Of a stretch of 20,752 nucleotides of DNA, positions 712-20,752 are shown one piece after another (within the stretch, counting starts at the first letter, position 1; every line of letters starts with the position of its first letter). The position numbers and the translations under genes are program-made. The DNA comes from a virus, in IMG/VR virus record IMGVR_UViG_3300035438_000701, positions 1 through 20,752 of that record. One strand, written 5' to 3'. Below the pieces are notes generated by a model. The model made no database searches, had not been told where the DNA came from, and saw only the letters and a list, made by a program, of their open reading frames with translations.

Positions 712-739
712 AAGAATACGCATAAAACGTGCTTTATTC
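709..739 (-). terminator. Rho-independent-like terminator after the polymerase gene
   Basis: The minus strand reads GAATA, AA, GCA, loop CGTTTTA, TGC, G, TATTC and then TTTTT. That gives an 8-bp stem with a small internal loop and a T5 tail. It starts inside the last codons of the polymerase gene. Its T-tail overlaps the TTTG box of the SSB promoter at 708-711. The stem is AT-rich, so termination may be partial. Confidence 0.5.
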
Positions 740-3358
740 TTCATAGGGTTTTAGGCTAAGCCAATTAGTATCTGACAACTCTATGTCTATCGCTAAAGAT
801 ACTGACTCCAAGCCTTTACCAAAGTATTTAAGTAGTGGTAAATTTTCACAAGTACTCCTAACTGTTTTAACCACAGTAGACAACAACTTAGGATTGAAGT
901 CTAGGATAATACTGTCATGTACTGTATTAACTAGCAGCACATCTTTAGGCAATCTATCCCTTAATAAAGCTAGTGCAAATATAGTAAGCTCTCCCGCAGT
1001 CCCTTGTATAGGGCTGTTGATAGCTACACGCTCATCCATCCCTCTAATAAAGTCGCTCTTATCTTCTATCATTGGCACATGGCGCTTTCTACCTAACAGC
1101 GTTCTGACATACCCGAATTTTACACCTTTACCTATGTAGGTAGCATGGTAATCTAGTAGCTTGTTATATAGTGAGAAAAAGTCCTTTCTTATTTGTACAG
1201 CCTCAGCTAGAGTAATAATAACACCGTAGTTACTCTTAGAGTAATCCACCAAGCTTTCCGCAGACATTCCATAGATAAGCCCGAAGTTAACTGCTTTAGC
1301 TTTAGTTCTGTTCCTCTTTATATCTTCCTTGCTCTGCTTATAAAAAGCTTCTAGGCTCAGCCCCATAGTCTTTGCAGCCGTAATAGCATGAATATCTTTC
1401 TTTTCTTTGTATGCAGTCAGCATTGTGGTATCGTTAGCGAAATCGGCTATAACCCTCAATTCTACCTGTGCATAATCCGCTTGTTGTAATATGTTGCCGT
1501 CCCTAGGAATGTATACTTCCTTAATCATCTTAACAGCCTCTACAACCTTAGCACTAGATAACTTAGCTAAATTCGGTATGTTCTGTAGGTTTGGTTTCCT
1601 ACTAGATAGTCTGCCTGTTTCTGTACCGTGCAGCAAGAAACTTGTGTGTACAAATCCGTTATCATCTATCTTATTCTCTAGCCCTAGCAGGTATGTAGAT
1701 AATATCTTAGATAGCGACCTGTACACTAACAGCTCAGCTATAAATCCAGTCTTATCTTTAAGCTCCGCTAGAATATCCTTGCCCGTAGATTCTACCTCTT
1801 CCTGCTTCTTCCAATCCCAAGTTTTCTTAAACTTGAATCCGTCCTTTGAGTACAGTAAATTACCTAATTGAGTCGGACTGTTAAAGTTAATCCCTTCGTA
1901 GTAAGTAACCTCCCCACGTTCTAGCTCTTTTATGTTTGTTTCTAACTTAGCTTTAGTAAGCCCTTTGGAAGCGTCTGCCTTAACACGCATTATGTCTAAC
2001 TGCTTAGCGTTAATGCTTTGCTCTTTTAATACTTCGTATGAGGCTACTACTCTGTGATTCCTTAATATCTCTTCCTGCTCCTCTACAAGCTGCTTACACC
2101 TGTCAATATTGGCGTATAACTTATCCCTATCAATGCGCATCCCATTAAGCTCTGCATCAAATAAAGCTTTGAAACTATACATTACTAAATTTCTTAATAG
2201 CGTGTATAGCTTATCGTCCTTAAGTAAGTAGCTTTCCAATATCGTGAATACTCTTAGAGTTAAGTCTGTATCAGCTCCTGCGTATGGGACAAGTATATCC
2301 AATGGTATTTCATGCCACCTGTTCTTGAACTTCTTTACGTCTGCTTCATATCCCTTAAAGTCAGGGAAGAAAAATGCACTTACTTCTTTTAATCCGTGCC
2401 TAGCATCCTCATCCCACAAGTGGTGCATTAGCATGGTATCCGCTATACGACCTCTAAAATCCCTTATACCATAGCGCCAACATACCTGCATATCGTACTT
2501 TATGTTGTGCCCTATTTTATCAATGTTCCTATTACTGAACACCTCCTTGCCGAACATGGTTAAAATATCCATAGCCTCGGCAGGCGTGAAAGGGCTTTCA
2601 AAGTGGAACAATGGCATCACCCAAGAGCCTCCTTCCTGAAATGATACTGATAAAGCTGTGGCTGCGAACTGTGGGTCGAATACTCCTAAGTCCGTTATAC
2701 TAGTGGTCTCAAAGTCAAAGCAACACGTCTTAGTTTGCTTAACATACTCTATAAGCTGCTCAACCTGCCCAATCGTTTCCACTCTAGTAATTAAAGTAGC
2801 TTTAGCTTTTGCATAATTACCGTATGCTTTATCCTGCGCTTTCTGCATATCGTAGGCTAGCTTTTCTACACCGCTAGATGTCTTTCTAGCATAGCCTACA
2901 CCGTATGTAGCTACAACAGGTGTTTTAACTCCTGCAATGCTTATAGTTTCTTCTCCTGTAGTTTGGGATACCTTGACCCCTAATAAAGCTTTACACACCA
3001 CATCTCCCAATAACAAAAGAGCTTTAGGTCGTATAACCTTAAGCTCTGCTACTAAGTACTCTCCACAAATTTGTATTTCTTTATTGGTAACCTTATTTTC
3101 GTAAGGACTACACTTCACTAGGTAGGTCTTGTACACCTCTTCCTTTTTAAATCCCACCACATTGTACAATAGCGTATCTAGTAGCGTGTCCCTGTGTGAG
3201 CTGAATGGCGCTCTATTAGAATCGTCTACAGAGTTTGGATAATCTGATATGAGCACAACGTCAGCATACTTAGTGACGTTAGGCATTAAGCATACAGACT
3301 GTAGGTCAGGGCTTGCACATAAATCGCAAGCCATACATGATGTGTTACGTAGTTTCAT
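734..3358 (-). CDS. polA: Family A DNA polymerase with N-terminal uracil-DNA-glycosylase-like domain and 3'-5' exonuclease
   Basis: This 874-residue protein has three parts. Residues 1-130 resemble family 4/5 uracil-DNA glycosylases: Cys at 8, 11, 14, 83 and 98 (possible Fe-S ligands), the segment VYKTYLVKCSPYENK and a PKALLLLGD strand. The usual GEAPG catalytic loop is replaced by ISDYPNS, so glycosylase activity is doubtful. Residues ~208-380 form a DnaQ-like exonuclease: D215 and E217 (DFET), HNIKYD at 284-289, Y359 and D363 (YAGAD), all intact. Residues ~395-874 are the polymerase: motif A DYAQVELR with D628, motif B around R684, K688 and Y696 (NFGLIYG), motif C VHDS with D815. It should be the phage replicative polymerase. 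A UDG-like N-terminus is known in the SPO1 polymerase. It overlaps the preceding gene in a TAATG and is last in its operon. Confidence 0.95.
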   Translation of the reverse strand: MKLRNTSCMACDLCASPDLQSVCLMPNVTKYADVVLISDYPNSVDDSNRAPFSSHRDTLLDTLLYNVVGFKKEEVYKTYLVKCSPYENKVTNKEIQICGEYLVAELKVIRPKALLLLGDVVCKALLGVKVSQTTGEETISIAGVKTPVVATYGVGYARKTSSGVEKLAYDMQKAQDKAYGNYAKAKATLITRVETIGQVEQLIEYVKQTKTCCFDFETTSITDLGVFDPQFAATALSVSFQEGGSWVMPLFHFESPFTPAEAMDILTMFGKEVFSNRNIDKIGHNIKYDMQVCWRYGIRDFRGRIADTMLMHHLWDEDARHGLKEVSAFFFPDFKGYEADVKKFKNRWHEIPLDILVPYAGADTDLTLRVFTILESYLLKDDKLYTLLRNLVMYSFKALFDAELNGMRIDRDKLYANIDRCKQLVEEQEEILRNHRVVASYEVLKEQSINAKQLDIMRVKADASKGLTKAKLETNIKELERGEVTYYEGINFNSPTQLGNLLYSKDGFKFKKTWDWKKQEEVESTGKDILAELKDKTGFIAELLVYRSLSKILSTYLLGLENKIDDNGFVHTSFLLHGTETGRLSSRKPNLQNIPNLAKLSSAKVVEAVKMIKEVYIPRDGNILQQADYAQVELRVIADFANDTTMLTAYKEKKDIHAITAAKTMGLSLEAFYKQSKEDIKRNRTKAKAVNFGLIYGMSAESLVDYSKSNYGVIITLAEAVQIRKDFFSLYNKLLDYHATYIGKGVKFGYVRTLLGRKRHVPMIEDKSDFIRGMDERVAINSPIQGTAGELTIFALALLRDRLPKDVLLVNTVHDSIILDFNPKLLSTVVKTVRSTCENLPLLKYFGKGLESVSLAIDIELSDTNWLSLKPYEE
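2791..2805. repeat. 15-bp palindromic repeat, one mismatch, inside the polymerase gene
   Basis: The plus strand reads TTAAAGTAGCTTTAG, one base off the TTAAAG-NNN-CTTTAA family. In the polymerase frame it encodes part of KATLI (residues 186-190). Confidence 0.5.
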
Positions 3359-6790: not shown

Positions 6791-7776
6791 TATCCTAATA
6801 TTTTTATGACATCTAAGTCTGTTAATACTTTACTCTTTTTTACCATTTCCATTACCTTATCTCTGCCTATGGCGTTAGCGTCCTTACCGCTTTCCTTGGT
6901 GTATCCGAAAGCTTCAAAGTTTACTACGGTTACTTTTTTGTTTCCCATAAACTTGATAGCTGTAGATACTGCCTGCTGATAGAATCCCACATCTGCCAAC
7001 ACTACCAAGTTCTTACAGCTACTGCTGTTAATAATAAAAAGTTGGTCAGCGCTAACTGACCAACCTTGTGTTGATATTCCTGAGTTCCCCATCGTTACTG
7101 CATCGCTCCACCCCTCAGTTAGGTAGCAAGTGTTATAGATATTAAGCGCATCCTCATTGAACACTAGCTCAGATTTACCTACCCCGCATATCTCCTCCTT
7201 TGGATTCTTGTACCGTAGGAAGTTGCCTATGTAGTCCCTGCCCAAGTAGTAAACTATCTTCCCTTTCTTGGAGAATGGCACTATGATGTATCCGAAGAAG
7301 TTTTCCTCAGAGTCCTTATGCTGTACATCGCAAAAGCCGAAGCCTGCTGCGTCCATAGCCTCCACATCAAAGCCTCTCCCATCTAGGTAAGCGCAAGCCC
7401 TATCCCTCATAACCGTGGACTTACCCACCAATGGTTTAAATCCTTTAGGCATTTCTATAGATACTAGAGCTGTCTTGCGTTCTACTCTTATAGCTCCTGC
7501 GGTCTCTAGGGTGATTGAAGATTTCTTTTCGCTATCAATAATCTCCTTAGCCTCAAAGTAAGAAACATCTAATACCTCTGATACAAACATTGCTATGCGG
7601 TCTTTGTAGCCGCACACCCAACACTTGCACGTTTCGTATTGGAAGTTTACAGACATCTTAGCTGCACCATCCCCATCAGGACAAAAAGGACAGTCGAATG
7701 GATACCACCCATTCGACTGCTTTTTAAGTACGTAGTTGTTGTTAAACCACGTATATGCTTTCCTAGAATCTAACAT
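6790..7776 (-). CDS. DnaG/T7 gp4-type primase (zinc finger + TOPRIM)
   Basis: This 328-residue protein makes RNA primers. The N-terminal zinc-binding domain has C29-x2-C32 and C52-x2-C55, giving template recognition. The TOPRIM core shows TEGWSDAV (catalytic E221), LVVLADVGF (D262) and GKDANAIGRD (D299), the same order as in phage primases of the T7 gp4 N-terminal type. The second Asp of the usual DxD pair is absent: the sequence reads D262-V-G. No helicase domain is fused; the DnaB-like helicase is encoded separately at 8130-9479. The gene lies 1 base after the 94-residue gene and shares one base with the next start. A weak GAG-containing sequence precedes the ATG. Confidence 0.9.
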   Translation of the reverse strand: MLDSRKAYTWFNNNYVLKKQSNGWYPFDCPFCPDGDGAAKMSVNFQYETCKCWVCGYKDRIAMFVSEVLDVSYFEAKEIIDSEKKSSITLETAGAIRVERKTALVSIEMPKGFKPLVGKSTVMRDRACAYLDGRGFDVEAMDAAGFGFCDVQHKDSEENFFGYIIVPFSKKGKIVYYLGRDYIGNFLRYKNPKEEICGVGKSELVFNEDALNIYNTCYLTEGWSDAVTMGNSGISTQGWSVSADQLFIINSSSCKNLVVLADVGFYQQAVSTAIKFMGNKKVTVVNFEAFGYTKESGKDANAIGRDKVMEMVKKSKVLTDLDVIKILG

Positions 7777-7777
7777 C

Positions 7778-8062
7778 TTACTCTAAGCCCGCTTTCTTTA
7801 GAATTTCCTTAAGCTCATCTAGCCCCTCTCTGTAAGCAGCTATGTAAGTTTTAAGCGTATGACTTCTACCTGTAGATACTAGGTTAAGCTTTACAACTGC
7901 CGCAAGTAATCTGTCTAGCGATGTATAGTGTCCTATAGCCTCAGCTTTAGCCGAGCCTGCATTAGCACCTGTAACCACCTTGCTATTTTTTATTAAGTTG
8001 TATTGGCTTTCCTCAACTTCTATTGAGTACGGTGTTAACGCCAAATCGTTTATAACTATCAT
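7778..8062 (-). CDS. Small phage protein, possibly DUF5405-like, first gene of the replication operon
   Basis: This 94-residue protein begins with a strand-rich part (IVINDLALTPYSIEVEE), followed by HYTSLDRLLAAVVKLNL (residues ~45-61) and a long helix near 66-91 (HTLKTYIAAYREGLDELK). The order of a beta-strand start, a 'y.sL..ll.av.k' helix and a closing helix resembles the DUF5405-type small phage proteins found in replication regions, but I recall this only by pattern. It is the first gene after the promoter at 8087-8119, with a 25-base A/T-rich leader and no Shine-Dalgarno sequence. No biochemical function is known to me. Confidence 0.75.
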   Translation of the reverse strand: MIVINDLALTPYSIEVEESQYNLIKNSKVVTGANAGSAKAEAIGHYTSLDRLLAAVVKLNLVSTGRSHTLKTYIAAYREGLDELKEILKKAGLE

Positions 8063-8086
8063 TTTTTGTATTGTTTTAATTAGGGT

Positions 8087-8119
8087 GTAAATATAGCAAT
8101 TATTTTGTTAGTAACCAAA
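8087..8119 (-). promoter_or_regulatory. Bacteroidetes-type promoter of the replication operon
   Basis: On the minus strand TTTG (8116-8119) is followed after 20 bases by TATATTTAC (8087-8095). Spacing and -7 box are the same as at 679-711, and the segment AAAATAATTRCTATATTTAC is shared between them. It would drive the genes from 8062 down to the polymerase. Confidence 0.75.
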
Positions 8120-8129
8120 TTAATTATTT

Positions 8130-9479
8130 TTAATCGTCTGTGAGGTCTTTCCGCTTCTTAAGCTTCTTGTTTATCTCCGTCAAGTCTTTTTCGGCTATAA
8201 ACATTCGTGCTTCATCTATTTCTAGGTAACAAGCATTACTGCCCGTGAAAGCTTCCCCGTCTCTTTGAGCTACAGGAACTAGTCTGCCCATGCCCAACTC
8301 TACCTCATCGGGTGTTCTGCATAAAGCGAAAGCTGCGTGACAGTTATAAGCCTTAGCGAAATCCTCCCCAAAGTGTTTCATGTTGATTACCGCCTTGTTT
8401 ACTGCATCCCTGTTAACTGTGGATACTGTGAAAGCGAAAGTGTCCCACTTGTGATTAATGCGTATTGAATGATGGTAGATGTCCTGTATTTGAAAGCGCT
8501 TGTCCTTCTTCTGAATAGTTATATCCTCAGGCACAAAGTTATCCAAGTAATCATAGAAGATGATGTCGGGCACAAAAGCACGCTCATCTCTGTAGTACTC
8601 TAGGTTTACCTCAACATCTCCTAGGCTGCTTTTGTTAGCAGGGAAATAATCTATCACTAGCTCACCTCCCATTACACCGTACTGTCTCATCATGTCCTCA
8701 GCTAGCTTTGCGTTTTCATCCTGCATAAGCTCAGCTCTAGTACACTCCAAAATAGATTGCCTAGCCCTAGTCCTAATTGCGTTTACACTATTTTCAGTAT
8801 CTGCGTAATAAACCTTGTACCCATCCCGCACATACTCCATTGCTATCTTTAGCATTAGACCCGTCTTAAATGCTTTGGGCGCTCCCATCAAAACAATCAA
8901 CTGAGGCGAGTAGAATCCTTTGGCAGCAGTCAGCTTGTTTAGACCTTTCAAGAATGTTGGGCATCCTTCAACCCTATCAAACTTGTGGTCAGCTCTGTCT
9001 GCCAATAATAGCCCGCCCCTGTTTTTATCTTCGTCCAAGGAGTCCTCTGTGCGTAAAGCTATCTTACCCATTTTTTTATAGAGCTTCTGAAAGAAATCTT
9101 CATCCCCTTCTTTTACAGCTTCTATGTTGTTTAAGAATAGCTGCTTAGTCTCAGCCCGCTTACTGTAGTTGAGTATCTCTTCCCTTATCAGCCCTGTGTT
9201 TTCAGTTAACGGTGTGTAGGCTCTCCGTATAGCTTTTTCTATGACGGCAGCAGCCTCAGGCTTAACTTTACTTTTCTTGGCTTCTAGTCTGAAATACTCT
9301 AGTGAACTTGCTAATGATGGCACTCCCCCATACTCTTCAACATACTTGCTAAATATGTCAAATACTAACTGCATCTCAGGCTTCTCAAATATAGCTGAGT
9401 CTAGTATTTTTATGTACTTCTTACCCGCCTTAGCCTGTGCTAAAAATTGGATTAGTTCTTGTTGAAATTCGGGTGTCAT
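8130..9479 (-). CDS. dnaB: DnaB-like replicative DNA helicase
   Basis: This 449-residue RecA-fold helicase should unwind DNA ahead of the polymerase. The C-terminal motor domain begins near residue 170 with FLKGLNKLT and the H1/Walker A GAPKAFKT (199-206, K205, T206), continues with KVYYADTEN (H1a-like) and the Walker B strand DIIFYDYLDNF (305-315). TVSTVNRDA and a YLEIDEARMFI strand follow near the C-terminus. The first 140 residues are helical (QELIQFLAQAKAGKKY) and presumably correspond to the DnaB N-terminal domain. The length is typical. It is separated from the primase by only the 94-residue gene and the promoter at 8087-8119. The ATG is preceded directly by a palindromic repeat at 9481-9495. 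Confidence 0.85.
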   Translation of the reverse strand: MTPEFQQELIQFLAQAKAGKKYIKILDSAIFEKPEMQLVFDIFSKYVEEYGGVPSLASSLEYFRLEAKKSKVKPEAAAVIEKAIRRAYTPLTENTGLIREEILNYSKRAETKQLFLNNIEAVKEGDEDFFQKLYKKMGKIALRTEDSLDEDKNRGGLLLADRADHKFDRVEGCPTFLKGLNKLTAAKGFYSPQLIVLMGAPKAFKTGLMLKIAMEYVRDGYKVYYADTENSVNAIRTRARQSILECTRAELMQDENAKLAEDMMRQYGVMGGELVIDYFPANKSSLGDVEVNLEYYRDERAFVPDIIFYDYLDNFVPEDITIQKKDKRFQIQDIYHHSIRINHKWDTFAFTVSTVNRDAVNKAVINMKHFGEDFAKAYNCHAAFALCRTPDEVELGMGRLVPVAQRDGEAFTGSNACYLEIDEARMFIAEKDLTEINKKLKKRKDLTDD

Positions 9480-9480
9480 A

Positions 9481-9495
9481 TTAAAGCTACTTTAA
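9481..9495. repeat. 15-bp palindromic repeat, perfect, abutting the DnaB-like start codon
   Basis: TTAAAGCTACTTTAA lies one base upstream of the ATG at 9477-9479, where a ribosome binding site would be, and just after the stop of the 77-residue gene. A bound protein here could act on transcription; the RNA could also fold weakly. Confidence 0.65.
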
Positions 9496-9497
9496 TT

Positions 9498-9731
9498 TTA
9501 GTTTCGTACATACTGATTGTAAGCAACTGTTACAACAAAGGCAATAATACCGTTCTTAGTTTTTACGGTGCTTGTAGCTACAGAGGTTATCTCTATAAAT
9601 GGACTTCTTGTGAGGTGTCTCAACTGTGGCAGAATGTCTGTTGAAGAGTCACTCTCACAAGCAAACACTTCCACCTTGCTAACCCTAGAGCATCTCAGCT
9701 TCTTAAACCATATCTTAATATTTGTTCTCAT
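9498..9731 (-). CDS. Small hypothetical protein, 77 residues
   Basis: The predicted protein has a basic N-terminus (IKIWFKKLRCSRVSK), a middle with few features and a mildly hydrophobic strand-like end (NGIIAFVVTVAY). I do not recognise it. It is accepted because it is collinear with its neighbours, fills the gap before the DnaB-like gene and is preceded by an A/T-rich leader (AATTTAAAGAAATG) like other genes here. A plus-strand frame of similar length overlaps it, but an isolated plus-strand gene would be out of keeping with the rest. The reality of the gene is uncertain. Confidence 0.5.
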   Translation of the reverse strand: MRTNIKIWFKKLRCSRVSKVEVFACESDSSTDILPQLRHLTRSPFIEITSVATSTVKTKNGIIAFVVTVAYNQYVRN

Positions 9732-10597: not shown

Positions 10598-11023
10598 TTA
10601 CTGTTTATCGCCCCATCTAGCTTTATTCCCTAACCCGCTCTTTGCGAGTTTTATCCCTGACTTCCTCATAGCTTCTTTCATTGGAGCTGTGGTAAGCCTC
10701 TTCTTTAACCTAGCTTTAGTCTGTGCCGATACCTTTTCTTTAGTTCTGCCATCATGCCCGTTTGTAAACCGTGTGCGATTACCGCCCTTTAACAAATTCT
10801 CTGCTATTACTTTGTCGTAATTATTTAATGCGTGTTCTCTAGCTATTGCAGCGCTATCAGGACTGCATATACCTGTATGTAAATCTAGCCCATAGAACTT
10901 CTTATATTCGACTGCGCTCATGTCATGCTTTTGCCTAACATGAGTCATTAGCCGTTTAAAGGAAAGCCCACATATTTCACATATAGGCTTTCCGTCTAGG
11001 TCGTATGCTATTCTTCCGTACAT
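10598..11023 (-). CDS. Ros/MucR-type C2H2 zinc-finger DNA-binding protein
   Basis: The 141-residue protein has a single finger near its N-terminus: C15-x2-C18-x9-H28-x4-H33, followed by MSAVEYKKFYGLD. This CxxC...HxxxxH plus 'eYkkkYgL' arrangement is characteristic of the Ros/MucR bacterial zinc-finger family, whose known members repress transcription at AT-rich operators. The C-terminal half is rich in Lys/Arg (AQTKARLKKRL, GNKARWGDK) and may add non-specific DNA contacts; it is longer than the finger alone. It could also be an HNH-like or intron-type DNA-binding module, but no nuclease motif is seen. The start overlaps the 331-residue gene by 16 bases. It is the only recognisable candidate regulator in the window. 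Confidence 0.75.
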   Translation of the reverse strand: MYGRIAYDLDGKPICEICGLSFKRLMTHVRQKHDMSAVEYKKFYGLDLHTGICSPDSAAIAREHALNNYDKVIAENLLKGGNRTRFTNGHDGRTKEKVSAQTKARLKKRLTTAPMKEAMRKSGIKLAKSGLGNKARWGDKQ

Positions 11024-12095: not shown

Positions 12096-12617
12096 TTACT
12101 TTATGTACTTTTCTAATGATACTTTAACGTGGTCATGAGGCTTGATTAACTTGCCATCTTTGTTATAAAGTAGTACAGCTCCTCCGTTTAGTACTATCTC
12201 AAATGTGCCGCCTACTTTGTTCATGGTCTTGTCAGCGTGGTCTACAGTCCTGTGAGCTTTATTCATGTTGTTCTCATGCACTTGTTTAAAGGCATCCGCA
12301 AACACGTAATGAAAGCCTGCTGATACTATCTTACCTTGTAGGACATATTCTAGGTCTGCTAGTGCGTCAAGCTCTTCTAACTTGTTTACGTTATCGCCAT
12401 CAGATATTGGATGCTCTACACCCTCACTAGCTGCTAAGCATAAATTTATTAACGTAGCTTTAACATCGGAAGCTTCTGCTAATTCTGACAACTCTTCAAA
12501 GATTAGCTTTACTCGTAGCTGTCTGCTTTCTAAGCTTTCTACACAAGTAGGACTTTCACCTACAGGAAACTCAAAGGTTTCACTAAATTCTTTTACTGCC
12601 TTAGTTGATACCATCAT
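12096..12617 (-). CDS. MazG/HisE-like (all-alpha) nucleotide pyrophosphohydrolase
   Basis: This 173-residue protein has the paired acidic helices of the all-alpha NTP-pyrophosphatase superfamily: EELSELAE (E42, E45) and EELDALADLEYVLQG (E81, D84, D88), which bind Mg. HENNMNKAHR (115-123) and the DGKLIKP segment near 154-160 resemble the phage branch annotated as phosphoribosyl-ATP pyrophosphohydrolase-like. The probable reaction is hydrolysis of an (d)NTP to (d)NMP and pyrophosphate, cleaning or shaping the nucleotide pool, or lowering alarmones. It lies 23 bases after the dNMP kinase gene and just before a strong terminator. Two adjacent ATGs are possible starts. Substrate cannot be read from sequence. 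Confidence 0.8.
   Translation of the reverse strand: MMVSTKAVKEFSETFEFPVGESPTCVESLESRQLRVKLIFEELSELAEASDVKATLINLCLAASEGVEHPISDGDNVNKLEELDALADLEYVLQGKIVSAGFHYVFADAFKQVHENNMNKAHRTVDHADKTMNKVGGTFEIVLNGGAVLLYNKDGKLIKPHDHVKVSLEKYIK
12449..12463. repeat. 15-bp palindromic repeat, one mismatch, inside the pyrophosphohydrolase gene
   Basis: TTAACGTAGCTTTAA differs from the consensus at one base. In frame it encodes KATL (residues 53-56). Confidence 0.5.
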
Positions 12618-12640
12618 ATTATATTTGTTTTAGGGGTGTT

Positions 12641-13402
12641 TTAAGCGTTACTAGGGATTATCTCTAGCTGTTTGAGTATATACTTGACATCTCTTCTAAG
12701 TACTGTCATATCGTAGTTATTTTTAATTTTGAAATCAAACTCTGCTGCGTCTAATTCAGTTTCAGATATGTGAGTGCCTACAGCGCATGAGTCTCTATCA
12801 ACTCTGATAGTTATGCCGCCTCTGTCCTTAACGGCTGCTAGCTCATTCTGAAATCTTAAATCCGTGATAATCCAATTAGGCATTTCTTGATTAGGTGTCG
12901 GACTCATAATCGTTCTACGCTCTACAGGTTTGTAATCAGCGAACAAAGCATTTATCCACACATTCGGATGAACTTTATCCCTCATTGCATCAGTTCCTAG
13001 CTCTTGTAGTAATTGTCGTACAGTCATTTTATGGGCGTATAACTCGTCCTGCGAAGCGTTATCGTGTGTCCTTATAGGAAACGGTGAGTTAAACAGCTTT
13101 GTATGCTTAAGGTGGTCTACATAGTAGTTCCACATTGGAGGCAGTATAGATTTCTTCACTTCAGCATCTTCCAAATTTCTTACAGGTATGCCCGTCAGTA
13201 TTGATGCTATCTGTTTAAGCTTACCTGCGTACTTTTTTATCTCCCATTTGGATATAGCTTCCAAGCCCTCAGGAGATAATACGTTTACGTACTCTTGGCG
13301 CTGACCGCTAGCTAGGCAAACCTCCTGTTGAATGATTTTACCCACAGTATCTTTGCCGCTCCCTAGTTTGCCCGATATACCAATTAAAGTAGCTTTAATC
13401 AT
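12641..13402 (-). CDS. Deoxynucleoside monophosphate kinase
   Basis: This 253-residue kinase phosphorylates dNMPs to dNDPs for phage DNA synthesis. Seen: P-loop GKLGSGKD at 11-18, MTVRQLLQELGTDAMR (126-141), and the WIITDLRFQNE segment (D181, R183, F184, N186, E187), which is typical of phage dNMP kinases related to T4 gene 1, although those are variable. HISETELD (211-218) is also a family-like feature. The start overlaps the preceding gene by 8 bases and, unusually for this window, has a strong Shine-Dalgarno sequence (AAGGAGGG, 13407-13414). Codons 2-6 are formed by one of the palindromic repeats. Its neighbour, the MazG/HisE-like enzyme, also acts on nucleotides. Confidence 0.88.
   Translation of the reverse strand: MIKATLIGISGKLGSGKDTVGKIIQQEVCLASGQRQEYVNVLSPEGLEAISKWEIKKYAGKLKQIASILTGIPVRNLEDAEVKKSILPPMWNYYVDHLKHTKLFNSPFPIRTHDNASQDELYAHKMTVRQLLQELGTDAMRDKVHPNVWINALFADYKPVERRTIMSPTPNQEMPNWIITDLRFQNELAAVKDRGGITIRVDRDSCAVGTHISETELDAAEFDFKIKNNYDMTVLRRDVKYILKQLEIIPSNA
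13384..13398. repeat. 15-bp palindromic repeat, perfect, at the start of the dNMP kinase gene
   Basis: TTAAAGTAGCTTTAA covers codons 2-6 of the kinase gene, immediately after its ATG. Confidence 0.65.
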
Positions 13403-19253: not shown

Positions 19254-20752
19254 AATCCTCCGAATGTTGGGTATGCTGTCGCATCGTTTTTATTAACTAT
19301 TCTAGGTCTAACATATTGACCGTTGCTTAACTTGCTAGCTACAGGTATGTGACCATCTGCTGCATCATACACCGTAGCTTGATATGTTGGATTCTCAGTC
19401 TCAGGCTCTTCATTGCGCTTGCCCTCACCTACTCCATCATCAGTAGCATTTCTGCTAAGGTCTAAAGTAGTTTTGAAAGCTGTATCCACCTTATGCCTAA
19501 CACCTTGAATGTACCACTTACCTGAATGTCTTTTAGCTGCATTTTTAATGGTGATAATCGTATTCACTTCTCTGTCTACATCGCCTTCTATTTCTAGTAT
19601 GCAGACTTGCTTTTTATCTTTCTCTTCCGACTGTAAGCTCTCTGCTACTGCCTTAGCTTCCTCGTTGTTTTTACTAGGCATTGGGTACTTCTGATACCAT
19701 ATAGGATTACCTTTATCGTCTAGCCCTGTGTGAGCCATCCAATTACCTTCTGCATCAAACGCATTACCCTTGTACTTATCACCTACTAGTGTTTCAGTAT
19801 TGTTAGCTATACTAGATGTGGTCGCAGGTCTTTTACCTCCATTGCTCACATCTACATTACCTCCATAATCGCCTGCCGTTTCATCATCTAACAACTTGCC
19901 ATCGGGGTCTGTATAACCTAGAGCTGTTTCAGTCCCACCACCCTTTTTAGTGCTAGTGCGCTTGTGTATCTTAAAACTGTAAATAGTATCTACCTCTAGC
20001 GTAAACGTACGGGTGCTTTCTGAGTCGTAGGACTTCTTTACGTAATAAAGTGTACCATTGCTAACATACGATATGTATTTCGCTCCATTAACGCCATCTT
20101 TTGACCTATCAGCCAATTCTTGTATAAACTCAAAATCCGACAAGTTGCCTTGCGGGTAGTCAGAAGTTAAAGCTACTTTAGAAATATCGTCCGTCTTAAT
20201 CTTAAGACTATGCTTCCTGCCTAGGTCTTGTAGGATAGCTTCTAGCTGAGTGCCTTTCTTCCATACTTTATCAGAGCTAAACATTTTCATATCCTTACCT
20301 GTATCGCAACACCTTAAGATTAGGTGAGTCCCTGAGTCCAAGTAGTCAAAGTCAATATCCATGATGTACAACTGCATGGTCTTAGAAGTTTCTTCCAAGA
20401 ATCCGAATTGTACTACTACACCATTGCCCTCTGTACATAAAGCATTATCACATATAGTACGAGCGTGGATACCTGATATTTTAATCGTGAGGTTAGTGTC
20501 CTTGCTTATCGTATCCTCATAATCTATTGAAGTAACGAAATCTGATATGTCCGTAGTCTTACTGAAATCTATTGGAGCAGCCCTATACTCATCTATGTAC
20601 TCCCCGCCTTCGGGCGGTAAAACCTCACTTCCGTATAGGTCTTGCCACAGTCTTGTCTGATTAGCTTTCCCCACGTATAAGTCTCTATAGCCATCTTCTC
20701 CATATAAATCTATTGCATTTTTCTTGAAGTTTTCAAGTTTAACAGCTCTAGG
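19250..20752 (-). CDS. gpD-like baseplate hub protein with possible LysM-like N-terminus (start outside window)
   Basis: The frame is open from the stop at 19250 to the right edge: 500 residues are visible and the true start lies beyond 20752. A GTG at 20674 is not needed as a start, because 26 further in-frame codons precede it. The first visible ~50 residues (NAIDLYGEDGYRDLY, VGKANQTRLWQDLYGSEVLP) look like a LysM-type module, as in tail proteins that bind peptidoglycan or the hub. Then come strands ending at NLSDFEFIQELADR (visible 203-216), the 'sdleFLqrLa' segment of gpD/VgrG-type hub proteins. These form the ring to which the spike attaches and which passes DNA. It lies directly upstream of the spike gene, the expected order. 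Confidence 0.75.
   Translation of the reverse strand, partial: PRAVKLENFKKNAIDLYGEDGYRDLYVGKANQTRLWQDLYGSEVLPPEGGEYIDEYRAAPIDFSKTTDISDFVTSIDYEDTISKDTNLTIKISGIHARTICDNALCTEGNGVVVQFGFLEETSKTMQLYIMDIDFDYLDSGTHLILRCCDTGKDMKMFSSDKVWKKGTQLEAILQDLGRKHSLKIKTDDISKVALTSDYPQGNLSDFEFIQELADRSKDGVNGAKYISYVSNGTLYYVKKSYDSESTRTFTLEVDTIYSFKIHKRTSTKKGGGTETALGYTDPDGKLLDDETAGDYGGNVDVSNGGKRPATTSSIANNTETLVGDKYKGNAFDAEGNWMAHTGLDDKGNPIWYQKYPMPSKNNEEAKAVAESLQSEEKDKKQVCILEIEGDVDREVNTIITIKNAAKRHSGKWYIQGVRHKVDTAFKTTLDLSRNATDDGVGEGKRNEEPETENPTYQATVYDAADGHIPVASKLSNGQYVRPRIVNKNDATAYPTFGGL
20167..20181. repeat. 15-bp palindromic repeat, one mismatch, inside the hub gene
   Basis: TTAAAGCTACTTTAG departs from the consensus in its last base. 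Here the frame reads KVAL, unlike the KATL/KAAL of the other coding copies. Confidence 0.5.

Follow-up and report, generated by a model that had tools for sequence, protein, structure and literature searches.

A degraded uracil-DNA glycosylase-like domain with retained Fe-S-type cysteines at the N-terminus of a phage family A DNA polymerase

The family A DNA polymerase (PolA) encoded by a 20.75-kb virus fragment (IMG/VR record IMGVR_UViG_3300035438_000701; the whole stretch of 20,752 nucleotides is referred to as the window hereafter) carries a degraded uracil-DNA glycosylase (UDG)-like domain at its N-terminus. The original prediction had reported this domain from the letters alone, and the observation holds. 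We consider it fairly probable that the domain comes from a family 4-type [4Fe-4S] UDG that was fused to a phage PolA, and that it is now a non-catalytic, Fe-S-stabilised part of the replicative polymerase. The observations in support are the predicted fold, the lost residues, the four kept cysteines, the recurrence of these features together across many phage polymerases, and the constraint on those catalytically dead relatives that could be measured. The kept domain would then have a structural or DNA-holding role.

The domain, its cysteines and its uracil pocket

The polymerase ORF is unbroken and real and lies on the minus strand, a point absent from the original prediction; its Pfam matches follow the order UDG (PF03167, residues 32–130), DNA_pol_A_exo1 (193–376) and DNA_pol_A (469–866); the coordinates of all features are collected in Table 1. 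The PF03167 match has an E-value of 2.3e-12 and a score of 47.6 bits, the cut-off being 24.3. A phmmer search with residues 1–180 matched solved family 4 UDGs (1l9g, 1.7e-11; 1ui0, 6.2e-11), and thus the UDG likeness is not due to chance. The AF2 model of the domain was confident (pLDDT 93.5, pTM 0.90). When the Foldseek matches to this model were scored a second time (VIA), the Z-scores were 23.4 for UdgX (6l6s), 23.2 for the S. tokodaii UDG (4zbx) and 22.2 for Tth UDGa (1ui0); UdgX and the S. tokodaii, T. maritima and Thermus family 4 UDGs together gave Z of 21.8–23.4 at 1.6–2.4 Å over 169–180 residues, and the family 5 UDGb (2d3y) gave 18.9. The UDG superfamily alpha/beta fold is therefore present according to both Pfam and the predicted model, so that the proposed fusion of a UDG-superfamily domain to the replicative PolA stands, and the structure prediction by which it was to be checked gave a UDG fold with Z of about 22–23 to family 4 UDGs and UdgX. 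The extent given for it, residues 1–130, does lie within the domain but is too short: the boundary is at about residue 175 by alignment and models. The KCSPYENK and LLLLGD segments were located at residues 82–89 and 114–119, respectively.

C8, C11, C83 and C98, predicted as Fe-S ligands, are all kept in the alignment to solved family 4 enzymes, as had been proposed. The C-x2-C-x-L pattern aligns C8 and C11 with the first two conserved cysteines, and C83 and C98 are the remaining two; in family 4 UDGa the conserved cysteines at these four places are the cluster ligands. The UDGa enzymes 1ui0 (Tth) and 4zbx (S. tokodaii) share these positions and the fold with the window, as well as P41 and G118. 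C14 and C23 are extra cysteines beyond the predicted four. A cysteine at the place of C23 (3290–3292) was found in 89% of 47 intact and 53% of 58 other polymerase-fused domains of an earlier 105-row set, which still included rows cut by contig ends, and in none of four aligned solved stand-alone family 4 UDGs.

According to the available part of PMC5387724, the uracil pocket of Tth UDGa consists of E41, G42, E47, F54, N80 and H155, and k2/Km drops about 2,500-fold in H155S, about 890-fold in E41Q and about 44-fold in N80A. Five of these six positions are altered in the window (E41 to D39, G42 to Y40, E47 to D45, N80 to Y79, and H155 to G153), the sole unchanged residue being F54, which corresponds to F52. 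Motif 1, GE(A/G)PG, is absent, its position reading S38-D39-Y40-P41-N42. The degraded GEAPG loop was thus correctly recognised in the original prediction, but the loss goes beyond it: Y79 and G153 had been missed. The window residue N88 falls under Tth N89 in alignments A1 and A4 but not in A6 or the larger alignment, gap placement deciding the matter, and a K-x-R-G stretch frequent in dead relatives is Q-T-T-G in the window. Since the pocket and catalytic residues are lost, uracil excision by this domain is unlikely.

The rest of the polymerase is well preserved in its key residues: D215, E217, D363, R583, D628, R684, K688, H814 and D815 are invariant in an 80-sequence alignment, and N285, D289 and Y359 are conserved there at 90% or more. 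Because these exonuclease and polymerase residues are kept, the polymerase looks active. The AF2 model of the whole polymerase (pLDDT 94.0, pTM 0.88) suggests that the UDG, exonuclease and polymerase domains have a fixed arrangement. The adjoining genes (helicases, primase) are consistent with a phage replication module, and the baseplate genes in the window suggest a contractile tail. Two further observations were made on the same fragment. One is a match to PF05443, a Ros/MucR-type regulator, at 10598–11023 on the minus strand (E 8e-7), here in a phage. Another is that a PRA-PH/MazG-like pyrophosphohydrolase adjoins a deoxynucleoside monophosphate kinase (12096–13402, minus strand), so that nucleotide-pool genes share the fragment with the replication module.

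Table 1. Features of the polymerase gene in the window
Feature	Position	Strand	Basis or remark
Family A DNA polymerase gene with N-terminal UDG-like domain	734..3358	-	874 aa; ORF, Pfam and model
UDG-superfamily (family 4-like) domain, residues 1–175	2834..3358	-	Pfam, AF2 model, VIA Z
N-terminal cysteines: C8 and C11 as predicted Fe-S ligands, C14 and C23 as extras	3290..3337	-	alignments
Degraded motif 1 ISDYPNSVDD, residues 37–46 (GEAPG position)	3221..3250	-	alignments; Tth UDGa positions from the available part of PMC5387724
Residues 78–98, TYLVKCSPYENK...C98	3065..3127	-	Y79 replaces uracil-reading Asn; C83, C98 kept
LLLLGD strand, residues 114–119	3002..3019	-	G118 invariant in alignments A1, A2, A4, A5, A6
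Degraded HPS motif ATYGVGYARK, residues 150–159	2882..2911	-	G153 replaces catalytic His
3'-5' exonuclease domain, residues 193–376	2231..2782	-	D215, E217, D289, Y359, D363 kept
PolA polymerase domain, residues 469–866	761..1954	-	D628, R684, K688, H814, D815 kept

Spread among viral polymerases and selection on the domain

By tblastn and profile checks, the domain was found on the PolA of Serratia, Pseudomonas, Bacillus SPO1-like, Lysinibacillus, Streptomyces, Rhodobacter, Mycobacterium and other phages. The suspected wider group is real: 138 of the 186 distinct viral PolA proteins collected, IMG/VR relatives included, carry the domain (identical proteins counted once and three short ORFs dropped), a figure from a biased sample that is not a prevalence, the queries having mostly carried the domain themselves. 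The 48 rows classed as having no detectable domain include short remnants recognised by eye (L111, L120, L125). After four domains cut by contig ends were set aside, 134 were scored: 60 look catalytically intact, with E/Q, N and H present at the three key places, and the other 74, referred to as dead hereafter, have lost the excision machinery partly or wholly. All four cysteines are kept in 58 of these 74, where one row counted as dead and without the Fe-S set (L060) has no N-terminus and may be truncated. The Asn at 79 is lost in 69 of the dead domains, the His at 153 in 55, and both in 54. In the conservation ranking of the 175 columns of the dead set, cysteines 83, 8, 98 and 11 take ranks 3, 6, 10 and 11, and residues 39, 79 and 153 take ranks 41, 119 and 65, respectively.

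No relatives were confirmed when viral contigs were scanned with single sequences, either the window protein or its domain; relatives were found with alignment queries, two of which gave the best 80 of longer lists. A scan of genome contigs gave no UDG domain among 80 polymerase ORFs, the best 80 of a longer list. Records L011–L014, 'Bacteriophage sp.' from human faeces, had no polymerase-length ORF at the match and were set aside, as were the matches in L011 and LR756511 (L015), which are stand-alone, intact UDGa-type ORFs. Topoisomerase-like and release-factor-like ORFs of the bacterial housekeeping type were seen by eye in L012 and L013 (MT836347 and MT837376), which look like bacterial contigs. 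In L203, a 244-aa UDG-like ORF (958–1689) precedes by about 6 kb a PolA (7731–9635) in which no domain is detectable; the fusion may be split in two here. A second UDG match occurred in only 1 of 50 UDG-PolA records (G022), which may be incomplete, and dead domains are thus not generally replaced, within these records, by another phage UDG of the same superfamily model. The second match in G022, the record of L088, is at 20364–20765 in its own 177-aa ORF.

The history of the domain was followed on a quick tree of the exonuclease and polymerase regions (182 rows; LG+G4, SH-aLRT only, long branches flagged). It takes 20 changes to explain the intact/dead label on this tree (130 labelled rows), 8 for the Fe-S label (127 rows) and 7 for whether a domain is detectable (182 rows); by themselves these counts give no direction. 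The likely direction is loss of catalysis, because the stand-alone UDGa has the full residue set. The nearest UDG relative of the window is L023, which shows similar losses (GDFPSYADD, AYAVKC and TFACGYVDY); the two are 37% identical in the domain, 46% in the exonuclease and 51% in the polymerase, and the window's domain has therefore diverged faster than its polymerase. Together with L048 they form a three-row clade (99*) inside a 13-row clade (98*) of the same tree. In the latter, 7 of the 13 rows have no detectable domain, and an eroded domain without the Fe-S set is found in L048, L127 and L049, and also in L184, where the ORF is split; in the sister group L128–L134, also part of the window's clade, no domain is detectable. 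The domain thus looks less indispensable in the window's own clade.

These erosions among near relatives, together with the faster divergence relative to exonuclease and polymerase, are what would be expected if the glycosylase domain had become useless in the window lineage and were a decaying remnant on its way out. We consider this unlikely: the window and L023 both keep the four cysteines despite their low domain identity, the domain model is confident almost throughout, and dead domains are under strong purifying selection in five other lineages. The last point comes from 10 distinct dead-dead pairs with at least 80% polymerase identity (labels from the 105-row set), of which nine, from five lineages and not including the window's domain, gave a measurable dN/dS; the tenth, L020/L025, was saturated. 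In the nine pairs, one of which (L004/L066) belongs to a lineage that is also without the Fe-S set, dN/dS was 0.04–0.19 for the UDG domain and 0.01–0.14 for the polymerase, and the dead domain was less constrained than the polymerase in eight. Given these low values, the dead domains that could be measured are under purifying selection, that is, maintained and not decaying.

Gene neighbourhood and possible roles

A match to PF00303 (the thymidylate synthase (TS) superfamily) was found in 29 of the 50 UDG-PolA records, and in 27 of these 29 it lies no more than 4 kb from the UDG domain (Muddy has no Pfam UDG match, and its distance was taken from the 5' end of the polymerase). Only 2 of 27 records without a detectable domain on PolA have one. 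At E ≤ 0.001 the difference (29/50 vs 2/27) has a Fisher p of 9e-6, and over the family cut-off the counts are 26 vs 2; in this comparison records related to one another do not count as independent, some of the 27 are shorter, both sets contain L111, L049 and L111 among the 50 hold only a remnant undetected by Pfam, and the two TS-positive controls (L132, L133) are members of the window's own 13-row clade. The link does not separate the catalytic states, TS matches being present in 9 of 19 intact-domain records and 20 of 31 others. The TS-like protein of six named phages matches PHROG 160, 'thymidylate synthase', a match that does not tell TS from dUMP hydroxymethylase. In SPO1, a dUMP hydroxymethylase gene lies upstream of the UDG-PolA gene, and in MW202455, whose domain looks intact, a TS and a 'pyrimidine hmase' are near it. 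These genes near UDG-PolA suggest that the fusion may be linked to the making of thymine or its analogues from dUMP.

This dUMP-handling context, the UDG fold and the kept F52 would suit a domain that binds uracil or a modified base in the template or product without cutting it and makes the polymerase pause; archaeal PolB pauses at uracil through another pocket. The original prediction had offered 'uracil sensor or structural clamp', of which the clamp fits better. The sensor is improbable, because the uracil-reading Asn, which it would be expected to need, is Y79 in the window and is gone from nearly all of the dead domains; moreover, neither the 62.8-kb fragment of L023 nor the 78-kb fragment of L049 gave a TS-like match.

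The least probable reading is that the domain is still a glycosylase of altered chemistry or specificity, as a new UDG family: the changes from E to D at 39 and 45 are conservative, and several relatives have xDNP at motif 1 with the His kept, the Asn of xDNP resembling that of MUG/SMUG-type motifs, but the His, Asn80 and Glu41 are lost together, a bulky Tyr occupies the G42 position, and no other motif set that could make a complete active site elsewhere in the domain was seen by eye. That catalytic residues differ among UDG families (PMC5387724, available part) also speaks for it.

The favoured reading, of a non-catalytic Fe-S-stabilised module, can be put as follows. A family 4-type, [4Fe-4S] UDG would have become fused to a phage PolA, and uracil excision would later have been lost in the window phage with the domain kept as a polymerase part. 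The cysteines would still coordinate a [4Fe-4S] cluster, and this would keep the fold together. The domain may then help the polymerase to hold DNA or replisome partners, in processivity or docking, without base flipping and cutting.

Comparison with known systems

The fusion of UDG and PolA itself is already known, from PaBG and its relatives (available part of PMC7412058), from SPO1 by its sequence, and from PDB entry 9qhs. In the phage PaBG (gp205) and the 'Lupandier' phages, an N-terminal UDG domain followed by exonuclease and polymerase is found in all 11 members, and the authors read the domain as uracil-removing (PMC7412058, available part); the likeness to the window is by published description only. 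This is the one publication found on such a fusion, and in its available part it reads the domain as built-in uracil removal. Bacillus phage SPO1 gp31 likewise carries an N-terminal UDG-like domain on PolA, so that the parallel drawn in the original prediction is sound as to a comparable domain; nevertheless, it is not a close one, gp31 being almost the reverse of the window, with the Fe-S cysteines lost and the HP motif kept. UDGa and UdgX are stand-alone enzymes whose catalytic and uracil-reading residues are lost in the window. UdgX shares the fold with it, but the KRRIH insertion of the R-loop is missing from the window in the alignment to 6l6s, and SDYPN stands in place of GEQPG. The protein A0A6J5SR21 of an uncultured Caudovirales phage (BFVD/UniProt; 880 aa) is 41% identical to the window polymerase over 887 columns with a TM of 0.83 to its model, in a comparison of whole polymerases only, and is named only as a bifunctional 3'-5' exonuclease/DNA polymerase.

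The recurrent dead, Fe-S-keeping state is apparently new: no description of it was found in the open PMC literature, as far as the sources were available, and in particular none in the available parts of PMC2147016, PMC7886860, PMC5977210, PMC8670742, PMC11348598, PMC9629493, PMC7824862, PMC9069017 and PMC7143999. It is tentatively possible that phage replicases have many times turned a built-in [4Fe-4S] UDG into a non-catalytic, cluster-keeping module, a counterpart of the poxvirus D4 arrangement. Vaccinia D4 belongs to the family 1 UNGs and has no Fe-S cysteines; the polymerase that it serves, E9, is of family B. D4 has an essential role in processive synthesis that is independent of its glycosylase activity, and it is a protein of its own that A20 links to E9 (PMC4450493, available part). 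The likeness to the window is in the kind of role, a UDG-fold protein serving a viral polymerase, and not in membership. If the broader proposal were true, family A replicases would contain an Fe-S element, and a redox or DNA-holding role of it could control processivity. As 74 of the 134 scored domains have lost excision machinery, the name of the domain does not justify assuming a repair role. The fusion exists in both intact and dead versions, so that their processivity, uracil response and Fe-S dependence can be compared.

Finally, the PolA of Thermus phage phiLo (PDB 9qhs, released 2026-03-25) is a family A polymerase of solved structure whose N-terminus carries a UDG-like domain (profile E 5.4e-19; VIA Z 14.9 to the window domain model). 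Unlike that of the window, this domain looks intact (GEAPG, TN..C, HPS). No publication on 9qhs was found in the open PMC literature, and the entry was absent among the 50 PDB whole-polymerase fold matches listed, a list filled by Klenow-type chains. The polymerase ORF of phiLo (L289, MH673673, about 166.4–169.6 kb, minus strand) encodes 1183 aa with a CxxC in the first ~41 residues, and, judging from lengths and profile positions, the 9qhs chain (1142 aa) starts about 41 residues into this ORF, without the CxxC. The solved construct may thus be without two of the Fe-S ligands, perhaps as a result of the start-codon annotation.
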